A stretch of DNA of 42,250 bases from Nitrospiraceae bacterium. Lineage in GTDB: Bacteria > Nitrospirota > Nitrospiria > Nitrospirales > Nitrospiraceae. Where the stretch lies: positions 1 through 42,250 of the forward strand of contig JABFSG010000069.1 in assembly GCA_013140715.1 (NCBI GenBank), written 5' to 3'. Below, piece after piece: positions 15,963 to 19,659 of this stretch. Position 1 is the first letter of the stretch. Every line of letters starts with the position of its first letter. The position numbers were made by a program, and so were the translations under genes. The notes under the pieces were generated by a model that ran no database searches, was not told the DNA's origin, and saw nothing but the letters and a program-made list of their open reading frames with translations.

Positions 15963-16167
15963 GTTCAGAAAGTCCGGCTTATCGGATGCTCAATAGCGCT
16001 ATCCCTCAAGGCCGCAGCGCCCGAAGCAGGCGGAGGTCAAGGTTTAGCGAGGAAGAAGGTTGGAGGTTCAAGGTTGGATGTTAGACGCCGTAGACCATGC
16101 TCTTGCTCAAGCCTCGTTCCTCAGACCTCTAACCTCAAGCCGCTTCAGCCGTAACCTTCCAAGATGT
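15963..16167. repeat. Diverged copy of the dispersed intergenic element
   Basis: This 15931-16209 gap contains ggatgctcaatagcg and ctcaaggccgcag (15984-16018), which echo the left arm of the elements at 20967 and 22637. It also contains purine-rich ggttggaggttcaaggttgg (16060-16079), partly mirrored by cctctaacctcaagcc (16126-16141), as in the copy at 22637. The terminal repeats are degraded. No coding potential is seen. Confidence 0.45.
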
Positions 16168-16209: not shown

Positions 16210-16641
16210 TTACGCGGCGATTTTCGTGAGGAGTCTTTTGACTTCGACGTGGGCAAAGATGACGTCAGGTTCCCGCTGAAGGGCTTCGTAGTAGCTGCGT
16301 TCGAAACCGTCTCCCTCCTCTGAGGGACGGATGAGGGCTCTGGCTTCGATCAGAAAGTGTTCCATCTCAACCAGCAGTAATTCGGATTCGTCATCCAAGA
16401 GTTCATCGATGCGAATCACCAGCTGAGAGAGGGGATGAAGCCAGGTAAACCAGGGGTCGTTCAACACCAATTGCAGCAGTTGGCTGGTTGAGGAAACTCG
16501 TCCGTTGATGCGTTCGTAGGTCACTTGTTCCGCCAGGATGAGGGCCTTATGAAGGCTCAAGAGGCTGCCTCGCATGTCGAGGAGTCTCTGGCGGTGAGGG
16601 CAAGACTCCTTGGACGAGGTTTGTTGCGGCACAGGTTTCAT
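16210..16641 (-). CDS. Conserved hypothetical protein, paralogue of the next gene
   Basis: 143 residues, no signal peptide or membrane segment, predicted all-helical. Shared blocks with the neighbour at 16869: LILAEQVTYERINGRV, DPWFTWL with PLSQLVIRID, and GDGFERSYYEALQREPDV then AH. A similar soluble protein occurs in many bacteria, but I know no function. The start at 16641 lacks a strong ribosome-binding site. The two paralogues run in the same direction and are separated by a 227-bp gap with a 9-bp-periodic palindrome. Confidence 0.75.
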   Translation of the reverse strand: MKPVPQQTSSKESCPHRQRLLDMRGSLLSLHKALILAEQVTYERINGRVSSTSQLLQLVLNDPWFTWLHPLSQLVIRIDELLDDESELLLVEMEHFLIEARALIRPSEEGDGFERSYYEALQREPDVIFAHVEVKRLLTKIAA

Positions 16642-16751: not shown

Positions 16752-16841
16752 CTGGTCATTCTGGTCTGTTTGGTCTATCTGGTTGATCTGGTTCAACCAA
16801 ACAAACGAGATCACCAAAATAAACCAAACCGACCAGACACG
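16752..16841. repeat. 9-bp-periodic palindrome, copy 1
   Basis: Five consecutive 9-mers of the form YTGGTYNNT/A (ctggtcatt, ctggtctgt, ttggtctat, ctggttgat, ctggttcaa) are followed without a break by five 9-mers in inverted sense (ccaaacaaa, cgagatcac, caaaataaa, ccaaaccga, ccagacacg). The whole 90-bp tract can fold into one long imperfect hairpin. It lies between the two paralogous genes. Confidence 0.8.
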
Positions 16842-16868
16842 GTCTTCTGATCCTGGTGTTGGATGGAG

Positions 16869-17303
16869 TTATGCGGCTTCTGCCAGCAGGGCTCGGGTGA
16901 CGTGGAAGTGGGCGAGCACGACTTCGGGGTCTCGCTTGAGAGCCTCGTAGTAGGCTCGTTCGAATCCGTCGCCTTCAACCGACGGGCGGGTCAGGCTGCG
17001 CACTTCGGCGACAAGATGGACGACATTTTCATGGGTGATGTCGAACGCATCGTCCTCTAGGAGCCGATCGATTCGGAGGAGTAGATCCAACAGGGGAGAG
17101 AGCCACGTGAACCAGGGATCCCTGAGCAGCAACTGGATGAGCTCGTCTGTCGTGCCGACGCGGCCGTGGATACGTTCATAGGTGAGTTGCTCTGCCACTA
17201 TCAGCGCGCTATAGAGAGACAAGAGTCTCTCGTGTACCTCCAGCATGGTCTGGCGCAGAGGATCATTGTGAGCGATCCGATCGGACAGTGACGGTGTAGC
17301 CAT
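16869..17303 (-). CDS. Conserved hypothetical protein, paralogue of the previous gene
   Basis: 144 residues counted from the ATG at 17303 (MATPSLSDRIAHNDPL). An in-frame extension to 17327 (MWLCYTYP) would start within a few bases of the 9-mer repeat tract, so the shorter start is preferred. It shares with the 16210 gene the blocks LIVAEQLTYERIHGRV, DPWFTWL, and GDGFERAYYEALKRDPEVVL then AH. It is soluble, helical and of unknown function. The pair arose by an old duplication, as identity is limited to the conserved core. Confidence 0.75.
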   Translation of the reverse strand: MATPSLSDRIAHNDPLRQTMLEVHERLLSLYSALIVAEQLTYERIHGRVGTTDELIQLLLRDPWFTWLSPLLDLLLRIDRLLEDDAFDITHENVVHLVAEVRSLTRPSVEGDGFERAYYEALKRDPEVVLAHFHVTRALLAEAA

Positions 17304-17329
17304 AGGGTAAGTGTAGCAGAGCCACAAGT

Positions 17330-17410
17330 TTGGTCTTTTTGGTTCATTTGGTTTGTTTTGTTTACCTGGTTCATCTGTTTAGTCTGGTTCAACCAAATAA
17401 ACCAAATAAC
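17330..17410. repeat. 9-bp-periodic palindrome, copy 2
   Basis: Seven 9-mers in one sense (ttggtcttt, ttggttcat, ttggtttgt, tttgtttac, ctggttcat, ctgtttagt, ctggttcaa) are followed by two inverted ones (ccaaataaa, ccaaataac). The turn point (ctggttcaa then ccaaa) is the same as in copy 1. It lies just upstream of the second paralogue and after the NlpC/P60 gene. Confidence 0.8.
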
Positions 17411-17422
17411 AGAGTTGTTCTG

Positions 17423-18091
17423 CTAGTGCCCTACCCGGGTGGCGAACTGCGTAAAGAGTTCTCCCGTGAGGTAGCCGGTATTGGCTGGGTCGTTCCCATC
17501 CTTGCGGCGAAGATAGTCGTTGAGGATGCGACCGTCGGCAGTTTTGTGGACGTGGGGTTGGTCGAGGTTCATGCGATAACGTTCGATGGCGTCGGCCACA
17601 CGGCTGATGAAGATGACCGTGCCATTCGATTCCTGCCGCTCGACGATCCCGACGTGCGTCAGAGGGTCGTTCACCTTGCCGTCTCCATTATAGTCCCATG
17701 TATTGTCGAAGAAGATGAGGTCTCCCGGGTGGGCAGCCGGCCCCTGATGGAATGTGCCTTCCTGCCGTATATGGGCATGGATGATTCGGACGCCGTTGGC
17801 GTCGGACTCATCCGGTTCACCATCGTAGAGATCGATCCCATGCGCAAGAAACACGGCGCGGGTAACCCCGGCACAGTCATAGGCGATGCGCCGGCCGTTG
17901 CTCTTGATCGTTTTCGCGCCGACCAGTTTGGCCGTTGTCTGAACGATGGCGCTTCGGCTCGGCGCGCGTTCGACGGATCTGCAGCAGGCGCGGCCGTCCG
18001 ATACCGATGGACGAGATCGCTCCACCGGTGAGGTCGCACAGCCTACGAGCGTCACCATGGCGATTGCGGTTGTGATGAAGAGAAGTCGCAT
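17423..18091 (-). CDS. NlpC/P60-like cell-wall hydrolase lipoprotein
   Basis: 222 residues. Signal peptide MRLLFITTAIAMVTLVGC with lipid-bearing C18. The catalytic cysteine is C73 in IAYDCAGVTRAVF and the histidine is H146 in LTHVGIVE. PGDLIFF before the histidine strand is the typical NlpC/P60 or CHAP arrangement. It probably cleaves peptidoglycan peptides from the periplasmic side. A GTG at 18100 overlaps the stop of the AAA gene, but the ATG at 18091 gives the better signal peptide. It is transcribed directly after the AAA+ ATPase gene, so the two are one operon. Confidence 0.8.
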   Translation of the reverse strand: MRLLFITTAIAMVTLVGCATSPVERSRPSVSDGRACCRSVERAPSRSAIVQTTAKLVGAKTIKSNGRRIAYDCAGVTRAVFLAHGIDLYDGEPDESDANGVRIIHAHIRQEGTFHQGPAAHPGDLIFFDNTWDYNGDGKVNDPLTHVGIVERQESNGTVIFISRVADAIERYRMNLDQPHVHKTADGRILNDYLRRKDGNDPANTGYLTGELFTQFATRVGH

Positions 18092-18096
18092 CGAGG

Positions 18097-19659
18097 TCAC
18101 CGTACGTTGACAAACCGGCCTTGGGCCGTCTCCCGAAGCTGATCGATGTCTTCTTGTCGGGTGACGGAAAGTGGCACAGTGTTGGTCAATTCTTCAATTA
18201 AGAGATCGGTCGTGAGTGGTGTCTTTTGATGGAGCGCGCGATACAGGGCTGCAACCACCGCCTGTTCGATCTCCGAGCCGCTGAAGCCGTCGCTGGCGCT
18301 GACGACTTTGACTAGATCGAACCGTTTGACCTCCTGCTTCCGAAGGGCCAGGTGAATTTTCCAGATGGATTCCCGCTCGCCGTCGTCCGGCAGGTCCACG
18401 AAAAATATTTCGTCGAATCGCCCTTTGCGAAGGAGTTCCGGGGGAAGCAGCGAAAGATTGTTGGCGGTGGCCACGACGAAGACCTCTTGTTTCTTTTCCT
18501 GAAGCCATGTGAGAAATGCGCCGAAGAGGCGGCGACTTAACCCGGCATCGGCTTCGCCGCTTCCGCCCCCGGCAGCCATCGCCTTCTCGATCTCATCGAT
18601 CCAGAGGACGATGGGCGATAACGACTCGGCCGTCTCGATTGCCTTGCGGAAGTTTTTCTCCGACTCACCGACAAATTTATCGAACAGTCGGCCTGCATCG
18701 AGCTTGAGCAACGGCAGCTGCCATTCCCGCGCGATGGCCTTGGCTGCCAGCGATTTACCGCAGCCAGGCACGCCCACGAGCATGATGCCTCTGGGGGGCG
18801 TGAGATTGAGCGCCTTGGCTTCCTGGGTAAATCCGACTTTCGCCCGTTCCAGCCAGGATTTCAGATTAGCGAATCCGCCCAACTCGAACCGATTGTCTTC
18901 CAGCGGGTAGTATTCAAGCAGGCCTCCGTCTTTAATGGCCTGCACCTTGCGCTTCAAAATCTTCTGCACGTCGTCGGCGCAGAGTGTGCCGTCTTCAACG
19001 ACACATTGCGTAATGACCTGTCGCGCCTGATGGAGCGTCAGCCCCTGCAGGGCTCTAAGGATTGCGTCACGCTCGCCTGCCGAAGGGTGCTGGGCTGCAA
19101 CTTTGGAATCTTTGATGGAGCTGAGGATGCTTTGTACGACGGTGGTCGATCGCGGGTGCTGGGGAGAGGTTCTGGGACCGAGCGATTGCAGAACGCTCTG
19201 GAGCATAGATTGGAGTTCGTTCCGATCCGGCAGTTGCAGATCGAGCCGGACTGCCATCTGTTCAATATCGAGCGGCAGGGCGATGGGATTGCCGGTCAGC
19301 ACACAGGAGGCTCGCGAGCGGTCGTAGGTCGTCGTGACTTCACGGAGTTGGCGGGCGACGGCGGCATCCTGTAAATGCGGTGCAAGATCCTTGAGCCAGA
19401 AGACTGCTTCGACTGTCAGGCCTTGCAGATGTTGAAGGACAGCCAGAGGCGTGGCTGTCATTCTGTTGAGCGTCGGTGTCTCGTCGGCCCTGGTGAGTCC
19501 TCTCGTGACGGACCATTCGAATAGGGGCATACGTTCCTGGGCGGCAACCGATTGGAGCAACGATCGCACTCGCTCCTCCTCCACCGTTTCGATGATAATC
19601 AGCGGGTGGTAAGAACGAATGAGGGTTCGGAGATCGTGCACGCTGGTTGAGAGGCCCAT
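18097..19659 (-). CDS. AAA+ ATPase, Ycf46-like
   Basis: 520 residues. Residues 1-240 form an N-terminal non-catalytic ATPase-like half ([24 protein letters not shown]). Residues 250-500 are a full AAA+ module: Walker A GVPGCGKS (296-303), Walker B VLWIDE (351-356), sensor ATANN and arginine-finger region [10 protein letters not shown]. This two-half architecture is that of Ycf46/FtsH-related ATPases without the protease domain. It is probably a cytoplasmic remodelling ATPase; the substrate is unknown. It heads the operon with the NlpC/P60 lipoprotein. Confidence 0.88.

Follow-up and report, generated by a model that had tools for sequence, protein, structure and literature searches.

Arrays and neighbouring genes at the locus

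The window is a 42,250-nucleotide stretch of contig JABFSG010000069.1 from a Nitrospiraceae genome (GCA_013140715.1). The part considered here contains three genes on the minus strand and two palindromic arrays of nine-base units:

16210–16641, minus strand: gene A, 143 aa, without a Pfam match; a paralogue of gene B
16752–16839, no strand assigned: array 1, with five left units, the axis base C16794 and five right-arm positions; it lies 28 nt past the stop of the minus-strand gene B, in the B–A gap
16752–16793, plus strand: left arm of array 1, G/T-rich, five YTGGTYNNW units
16795–16839, plus strand: right arm of array 1, A/C-rich, five positions, two of them imperfect
16869–17327, minus strand: gene B, listed at 152 aa, with an uncertain start codon and without a Pfam match
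17330–17408, no strand assigned: array 2, with seven left positions, the axis base C17390 and two clear right units (two to three positions); it lies 18 nt past the stop of the minus-strand CHAP/NlpC-like gene
17423–18100, minus strand: upstream gene whose weak match to CHAP / NlpC_P60 does not reach the Pfam cut-offs

Both arrays were found to be real, with 5 + 5 and 7 + 2–3 nine-base units kept in phase around a single axis base. The initial annotation called the repeats strict. The period and the phase hold, but the strictness does not: two of the five right-arm cores of array 1 deviate (AACGA and a slipped ACCAA), an exact TGGTY core is present in five of the seven left positions of array 2, and the palindrome is only consensus-deep, its arms showing no covariation. 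The arrays had also been linked to the paralogous pair of genes A and B (53% identity); this link is a local coincidence, and the arrays occur genome-wide. Matches to gene B were found in 28 of the 32 genomes of the genus. The fold of array 2 was modestly better than that of shuffled sequences (z = −1.75 and −2.58), and an Rfam search at the gathering score gave no match at the window arrays.

Just past gene A, at positions 16056–16140, there is a period-7 palindromic array of AGGTTSG units followed by their inverse, with the G-rich arm first; it was read by eye, and TRF finds only part of it.

Architecture and distribution of the repeat family

A pattern of three consecutive units gave 114 matches in the genome of the window (3.58 Mb, 105 contigs). 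The same pattern was present in 31 of the 32 genomes examined within the genus, the number of matches ranging from 0 to 246 per genome, and in three of five genomes from other genera of the family; in the other families of the order, it was absent from all 24 genomes. The initial annotation had named a tract that does not recur in relatives and shows no length variation as grounds against its proposal. The YTGGTYNNW tract recurs in nearly the whole genus, as counted above, and its orthologous copies vary in length in steps of whole units.

Two-armed arrays were then counted in stretches fetched from four genomes, namely the genome of the window (G000, 74 arrays), G019 (98), G026 (56) and G035 (34), the last of which belongs to another genus. 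The resulting 262 arrays are about 80–120 bp long and consist of degenerate YTGGTYNNW 9-mers, one axis base and inverted 9-mers in phase, with a peak at 10–11 units in total. The TGGTY arm comes first and the RACCA arm second in 255 of them, on either strand. In addition, the axis has phase 6 mod 9 in 119 arrays, about 29 being expected. Order-1 Markov copies of the sequences contained one two-armed cluster against 74 in 310 kb of G000, and none against 98 in 638 kb of G019, so the two-armed arrays are not due to chance. Note that the stretches were picked around pattern matches, and the array densities are therefore not genome averages. In G019, the period-9 pattern had 186 matches and the period-8 pattern had one, the two patterns also differing in the letters allowed. 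A control with the reversed pattern is not independent, because TGGT is identical when read backwards.

Among 59 stretches of named genomes that match the central 28 bases of the repeat exactly, 57 belong to Nitrospira or Nitrospirae, and the genome of the window is presumed on this basis to be a Nitrospira. The other two are contigs of a Pyrinomonadaceae MAG (SH2; L084 and L100). Since L084 also carries other repeats that are up to 95% identical to dispersed repeats of Nitrospira, the arrays in this MAG are likely due to bin contamination. The pattern was matched by 98 stretches of viral contigs as well. Two-armed clusters in these stretches had no preferred arm order (32 vs. 35), and a phage origin of the arrays was rejected. 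Among the viral matches listed, the sequences resembled collagen-like coding repeats, as judged by eye only.

Thus, the two arrays first noticed belong to something far larger than was initially described, a dispersed, genus-wide repeat typical of Nitrospira that has one polarity and is nearly always intergenic.

Other arrays were noted in the same material. In G035 (L292, L295 and L296), a second period-9 unit, GTTATGCCC-like, forms the same kind of palindrome past stop codons. The same Nitrospira stretches also contain heptamer arrays, and where these have an inverted partner the G-rich arm comes first in all 17 arms, which come from 14 loci; the loci were counted by hand among 68 heptamer or 14-mer arrays examined, most of which had no inverted partner. 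The heptamer units are varied and include ACGTTTC, GAATGTT, AGGGGTA, GAGTTTC and AAGGCTG (L272, L275, L276, L249, L031 and others).

Position of the arrays relative to genes

Genes were called with a purpose-written script whose start positions are uncertain, and the distance counts omit eight of the 262 arrays that lie at stretch ends and 19 that lie inside genes. Between tandem genes, the array begins no more than 15 nt from the upstream stop codon in 94 of 164 cases, while uniform placement in the same gaps predicts 64.6 (sd 3.7). The array was nearer to the upstream stop in 117 pairs and nearer to the downstream start in 46 (p = 2.5e-8; four genomes), and its median start was 4 to 10.5 bp past the stop, depending on the genome. 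The bias was not significant in G026 alone (18 vs. 13, p = 0.47). Between convergent genes, the gap minus the array had a median of 24 bp (n = 41), compared with 128.5 bp for array-free gaps (n = 114; p = 1.3e-7), and 19 of 42 convergent arrays were within 15 nt of both stops. As a control, 76 tandem arrays with periods other than 9 (periods 6, 7 and 12–14) from the G000 and G019 stretches were analyzed, and no stop bias was revealed (28 of 56 in tandem pairs).

Arrays between divergent genes (29 of 262) and inside called genes (19 of 262) were less common. One of the latter (L036:6147–6231) has a counterpart in G019 (L276:17821–17914) that is 18 bp longer and keeps the frame.

The next start codon lies within 50 nt of the far end in 50 of the 94 stop-adjacent tandem arrays. 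A Pfam scan of 20 neighbours of 10 gaps, taken from the 13 stop-adjacent gaps listed for G000, gave matches for 17 proteins; the matched pairs were either different genes with their domains intact or paralogues of full length. Judging by the Pfam family names, the flanking pairs presumably include fmt/rsmB, prcB/pafA (proteasome subunit and Pup ligase) and cheA/cheW. Another pair consists of OmpH paralogues, and in a further one an APH-like kinase stands next to a nucleotidyltransferase. These neighbours look like intact operon partners, and the arrays are therefore probably carried within polycistronic mRNA. The idea of a long RNA stem between genes, put forward in the initial annotation, gains support from this placement behind stop codons and from the operon-like gaps.

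Negative stop distances revealed that some arrays themselves provide the stop codon. Gene truncation was considered as the source of the stop adjacency and rejected, as the neighbours examined were intact. The adjacency may partly reflect tolerance, because the start side of a gene holds promoters and ribosome-binding sites.

Turnover at orthologous sites

Both flanks of 25 of the 74 G000 arrays were found in the fetched G019 stretches, with a median flank identity of 92%. The orthologous arrays differ in the number of units and in their spacers. For example, the pair at L056:2557 differs by one extra nine-base unit, and the pair at L045:2519 is almost identical; at a few sites, a different palindrome takes the place of the 9-mer array. 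Among 45 alignment gaps of at least 5 positions, 11 had a length of 9, three a length of 8 and none a length of 10, in a tally restricted to pairs whose lengths differ by less than 60.

The gap between genes B and A was compared across genomes by hand, excluding loci without both genes. A 9-mer array occupies it in 10 genomes (G000, G019, G006, G005, G030, G023, G013, G017, G026 and G020), the gap is plain and about 165 bp long in seven (G018, G008, G009, G010, G012, G002 and G014), and other palindromes are present in G031 and G001. Copies within one genome are also dissimilar, with a best identity of 0.85 and a median of 0.66, compared with 0.63 for rebuilds from random units. These data show that nine-base units are gained and lost quickly while the sites themselves are conserved.

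Other elements were observed at such sites. In G026 (L232), the 9-mer array of the B–A gap is broken by a palindrome with GTTCGACAAGCTCA / GAGCCTGTCGAA arms. A dispersed element with the ends GCAGGATGCTGAAAAA...TTTTTCAGCATCCTGC often lies beside the 9-mer array or replaces it (L229 of G001, L034, L044 and others), and its copy in G001 has CTACAG on both sides.

Folding and relationship of the arms

The sequence after the stop codon at tandem gene ends was folded and compared with shuffled versions. Values of z < −3 were obtained for 38% of the ends with an array and for 3% of those without one. The arms of individual copies were then compared. In 99 well-resolved arrays, facing spacer bases (n1n2) matched with a frequency of 0.364, compared with 0.403 for shuffled partners (z = −2.7), and in-register complementarity of the arms beyond the consensus gave no gain in any of seven shifts from −3 to +3. 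Other array positions had a weak positive correlation in the unshifted register (z = 3.9), which may come from overall differences in composition among copies. The mean fold energy of 85 arrays was −34.6 kcal/mol for the real sequences, −36.2 kcal/mol when right arms were swapped between copies and −32.7 kcal/mol when the order of units was permuted.

Since swapped arms fold as well or better, the stem is due to the unit consensus and not to copying or co-selection of the arms. No selection on pairing within a copy beyond the consensus is visible by covariation (99 arrays) or by folding (85 arrays), and both arm-to-arm copying and selection for pairing were rejected on these grounds. Slippage on a hairpin, another suggestion of the initial annotation, thus survives in part: nine-base steps in one arm are observed, but the arms are alike only in the consensus, which does not support copying of one from the other.

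Proposed role and alternative explanations

We assume, with a probability of about 0.48, that the array is a REP-like RNA hairpin behind the stop codon which evolves as a degenerate palindromic minisatellite, its function being ascribed by analogy. The array would be transcribed together with the upstream gene and would form a long imperfect RNA hairpin that begins within the ribosome's reach of the stop codon. As is reported for the REP hairpins of E. coli, it could present an obstacle at the stop codon or just past it and could affect ribosome release and 3′–5′ decay; this would insulate the upstream cistron from its operon partner or tune the one relative to the other. For convergent genes, a single palindrome would work for both. 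The nine-base phase would let slippage add or remove units with the hairpin intact, which would explain the conserved architecture together with the hypervariable sequence. One source on REPs (PMC12306157), drawing on earlier work, reports that ribosomes stall at those located no more than 15 nt from a stop codon in E. coli and that mRNA half-life is lengthened by those in 3′-UTRs. The placement at gene ends and the quick rebuilding between close relatives suggest that the arrays are probably gene-end RNA hairpins and not a chance local oddity. The role proposed does not apply to the 29 arrays between divergent genes and the 19 intragenic ones.

The main rival, which we consider plausible though somewhat doubtful, is a selfish or neutral dispersed minisatellite whose units and arrays spread and decay without benefit and persist where they do least harm, just past stop codons. 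Such behaviour agrees with the swing in pattern matches within one genus, with the presence or absence of the array at the same B–A site (10 genomes against seven with a plain gap and two with other palindromes), with the lack of co-adaptation between the arms and with the arrays found inside genes or between divergent ones. However, convergent arrays occupy the shortest residual gaps, contrary to random insertion, and other tandem-repeat families of the same genomes have no stop bias; both results fit the hairpin reading as a candidate function. In addition, the lack of target duplications and of near-identical copies (best identity 0.85) means that there is no sign of recent insertion.

It is unlikely that the arrays are bidirectional transcription terminators without a U-tract, although they do lie between closely spaced convergent genes. 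A classic intrinsic terminator was rejected, as the U-tract after the stem was not found. This absence does not exclude termination, because hairpin-plus-T-run terminators are rare in any case at array-free gene ends of G000 and G019 (tandem, 9 of 289; convergent, 6 of 104; 3–6%), which suggests that termination works by other means in these genomes. On the gene strand, A4 precedes the array directly in 28 of 136 cases and T4 in 3 of 136, as might be expected of a terminator for the opposite strand, and terminator-like sites were found at 10 of 83 tandem ends with an array and at 9 of 289 without one, the opposite strand being equal (11 of 83). Against this, T-runs are not enriched outside the array ends (A4 at 16 of 277 ends, 5.8%, against 6.0% in the control), and T4 follows the 3′ arm in 13 of 136 cases and A4 in 6 of 136. 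Moreover, about half of the stop-adjacent tandem arrays are less than 50 nt from the next start, often between operon partners, where termination would silence the downstream partner.

An array of DNA sites at which a protein repeatedly binds YTGGTYNNW, for instance in chromosome organisation, seems very improbable. The degenerate unit with a fixed core, its two orientations, a period near the helical turn and the fact that arm pairing is not required would all agree with it, but it predicts neither the post-stop placement nor a constant order of the arms, G/T-rich before A/C-rich, whose phase continues through the axis.

The least probable explanation, and hardly a credible one, is that the arrays are REPs or MITEs mobilised by a transposase, or else products of a reverse transcriptase: the palindromes are dispersed and a Y1 transposase domain occurs in 19 of the 32 genomes, but a Y1_Tnp match is absent from the other 13, including the array-rich G004 (92% complete, 152 pattern matches), an RVT_1 match is absent from G000 and G019, and both the GTAG tag and target duplications are missing. 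The tag was found at 17 of 470 array ends and at 18 sites farther out (CGTC, 8 and 31), and k-mers in the flanks of 235 elements were shared at chance level for k = 3–9. Thus, a RAYT or reverse-transcriptase origin is weakened, and MITE insertion was rejected for want of target duplications and near-identical copies.

Relation to known repeats and significance

The closest published kind of repeat is the convergent G-rich heptamer arrays of Xanthomonas (PMC4692102). The accessible text of that source describes GGGAATC in Xanthomonas and GGGGAYT in Nostoc as hundreds of short tandem arrays, mostly intergenic, that occur at the same genes in relatives with extensive variation in length and sequence and are scarcer between divergent genes. 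In Xanthomonas, 70 and 75 inverted pairs with convergent G-rich arms are given, and their function is stated to be unknown (PMC4692102). The Nitrospira arrays share with them the dispersed intergenic location, the variable length and the convergent inverted pairs (here 255 of 262). However, the unit there has 7 nt with GGG (G-quadruplex), while in Nitrospira it has 9 nt with GG only; the arrays there have few units, four being preferred, and are partly paired, while those of Nitrospira are nearly always paired and phase-locked. As far as the accessible text goes, the heptamers are placed near ORFs with no specificity for stop codons, in contrast to the post-stop location in Nitrospira.

The REP/BIME elements of E. 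coli (GTAG-/CGTC-tagged) are described in the accessible parts of PMC3733652 and PMC12306157 as extragenic palindromes past coding regions, some no more than 15 nt from the stop, and are reported to influence the stalling of ribosomes as well as the decay of mRNA. The Nitrospira arrays are likewise dispersed extragenic palindromes located downstream of genes and near stops. REPs are 20–40 bp long, carry a tetranucleotide tag and are often associated with a RAYT, whereas the Nitrospira arrays are 80–120 bp runs of 9-mers that are untagged and do not need a RAYT. With MITEs the arrays have in common that they are short, dispersed, palindromic and non-coding, but they lack terminal repeats other than the units themselves, target duplications and near-identical copies. 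With bidirectional intrinsic terminators they share the single hairpin for convergent genes; they differ in the lack of a U-tract, and many lie between operon partners. A literature search with little coverage of subscription papers found no prior description of the YTGGTYNNW repeat.

More speculatively, and with considerable doubt, the arrays could represent a class of gene-end elements that keep their architecture and not their sequence. Such an element would be a palindrome in which a short unit of any kind repeats with a locked period, the G-rich arm comes first and the start lies within reach of a ribosome at the stop. Slippage of units would continually reset its length and mismatches, so that it would be a fast-evolving expression dial for each operon junction. 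The GTTATGCCC-like 9-mers and the heptamer families might then belong to this class as well or have arisen through the same generating process.

Nitrospira drives nitrite oxidation and complete nitrification. The arrays described here are real and recurrent, and form a variant set apart by its unit, by near-universal phase-locked pairing and by placement at stop codons; the function remains putative. The family joins two poorly understood things, the convergent G-rich arrays of Xanthomonas and REP hairpins near stop codons. Since the same arm order is found over different repeat units, a common cause is called for, and the single-unit differences among orthologous copies provide a natural length series for tests of a post-stop hairpin.
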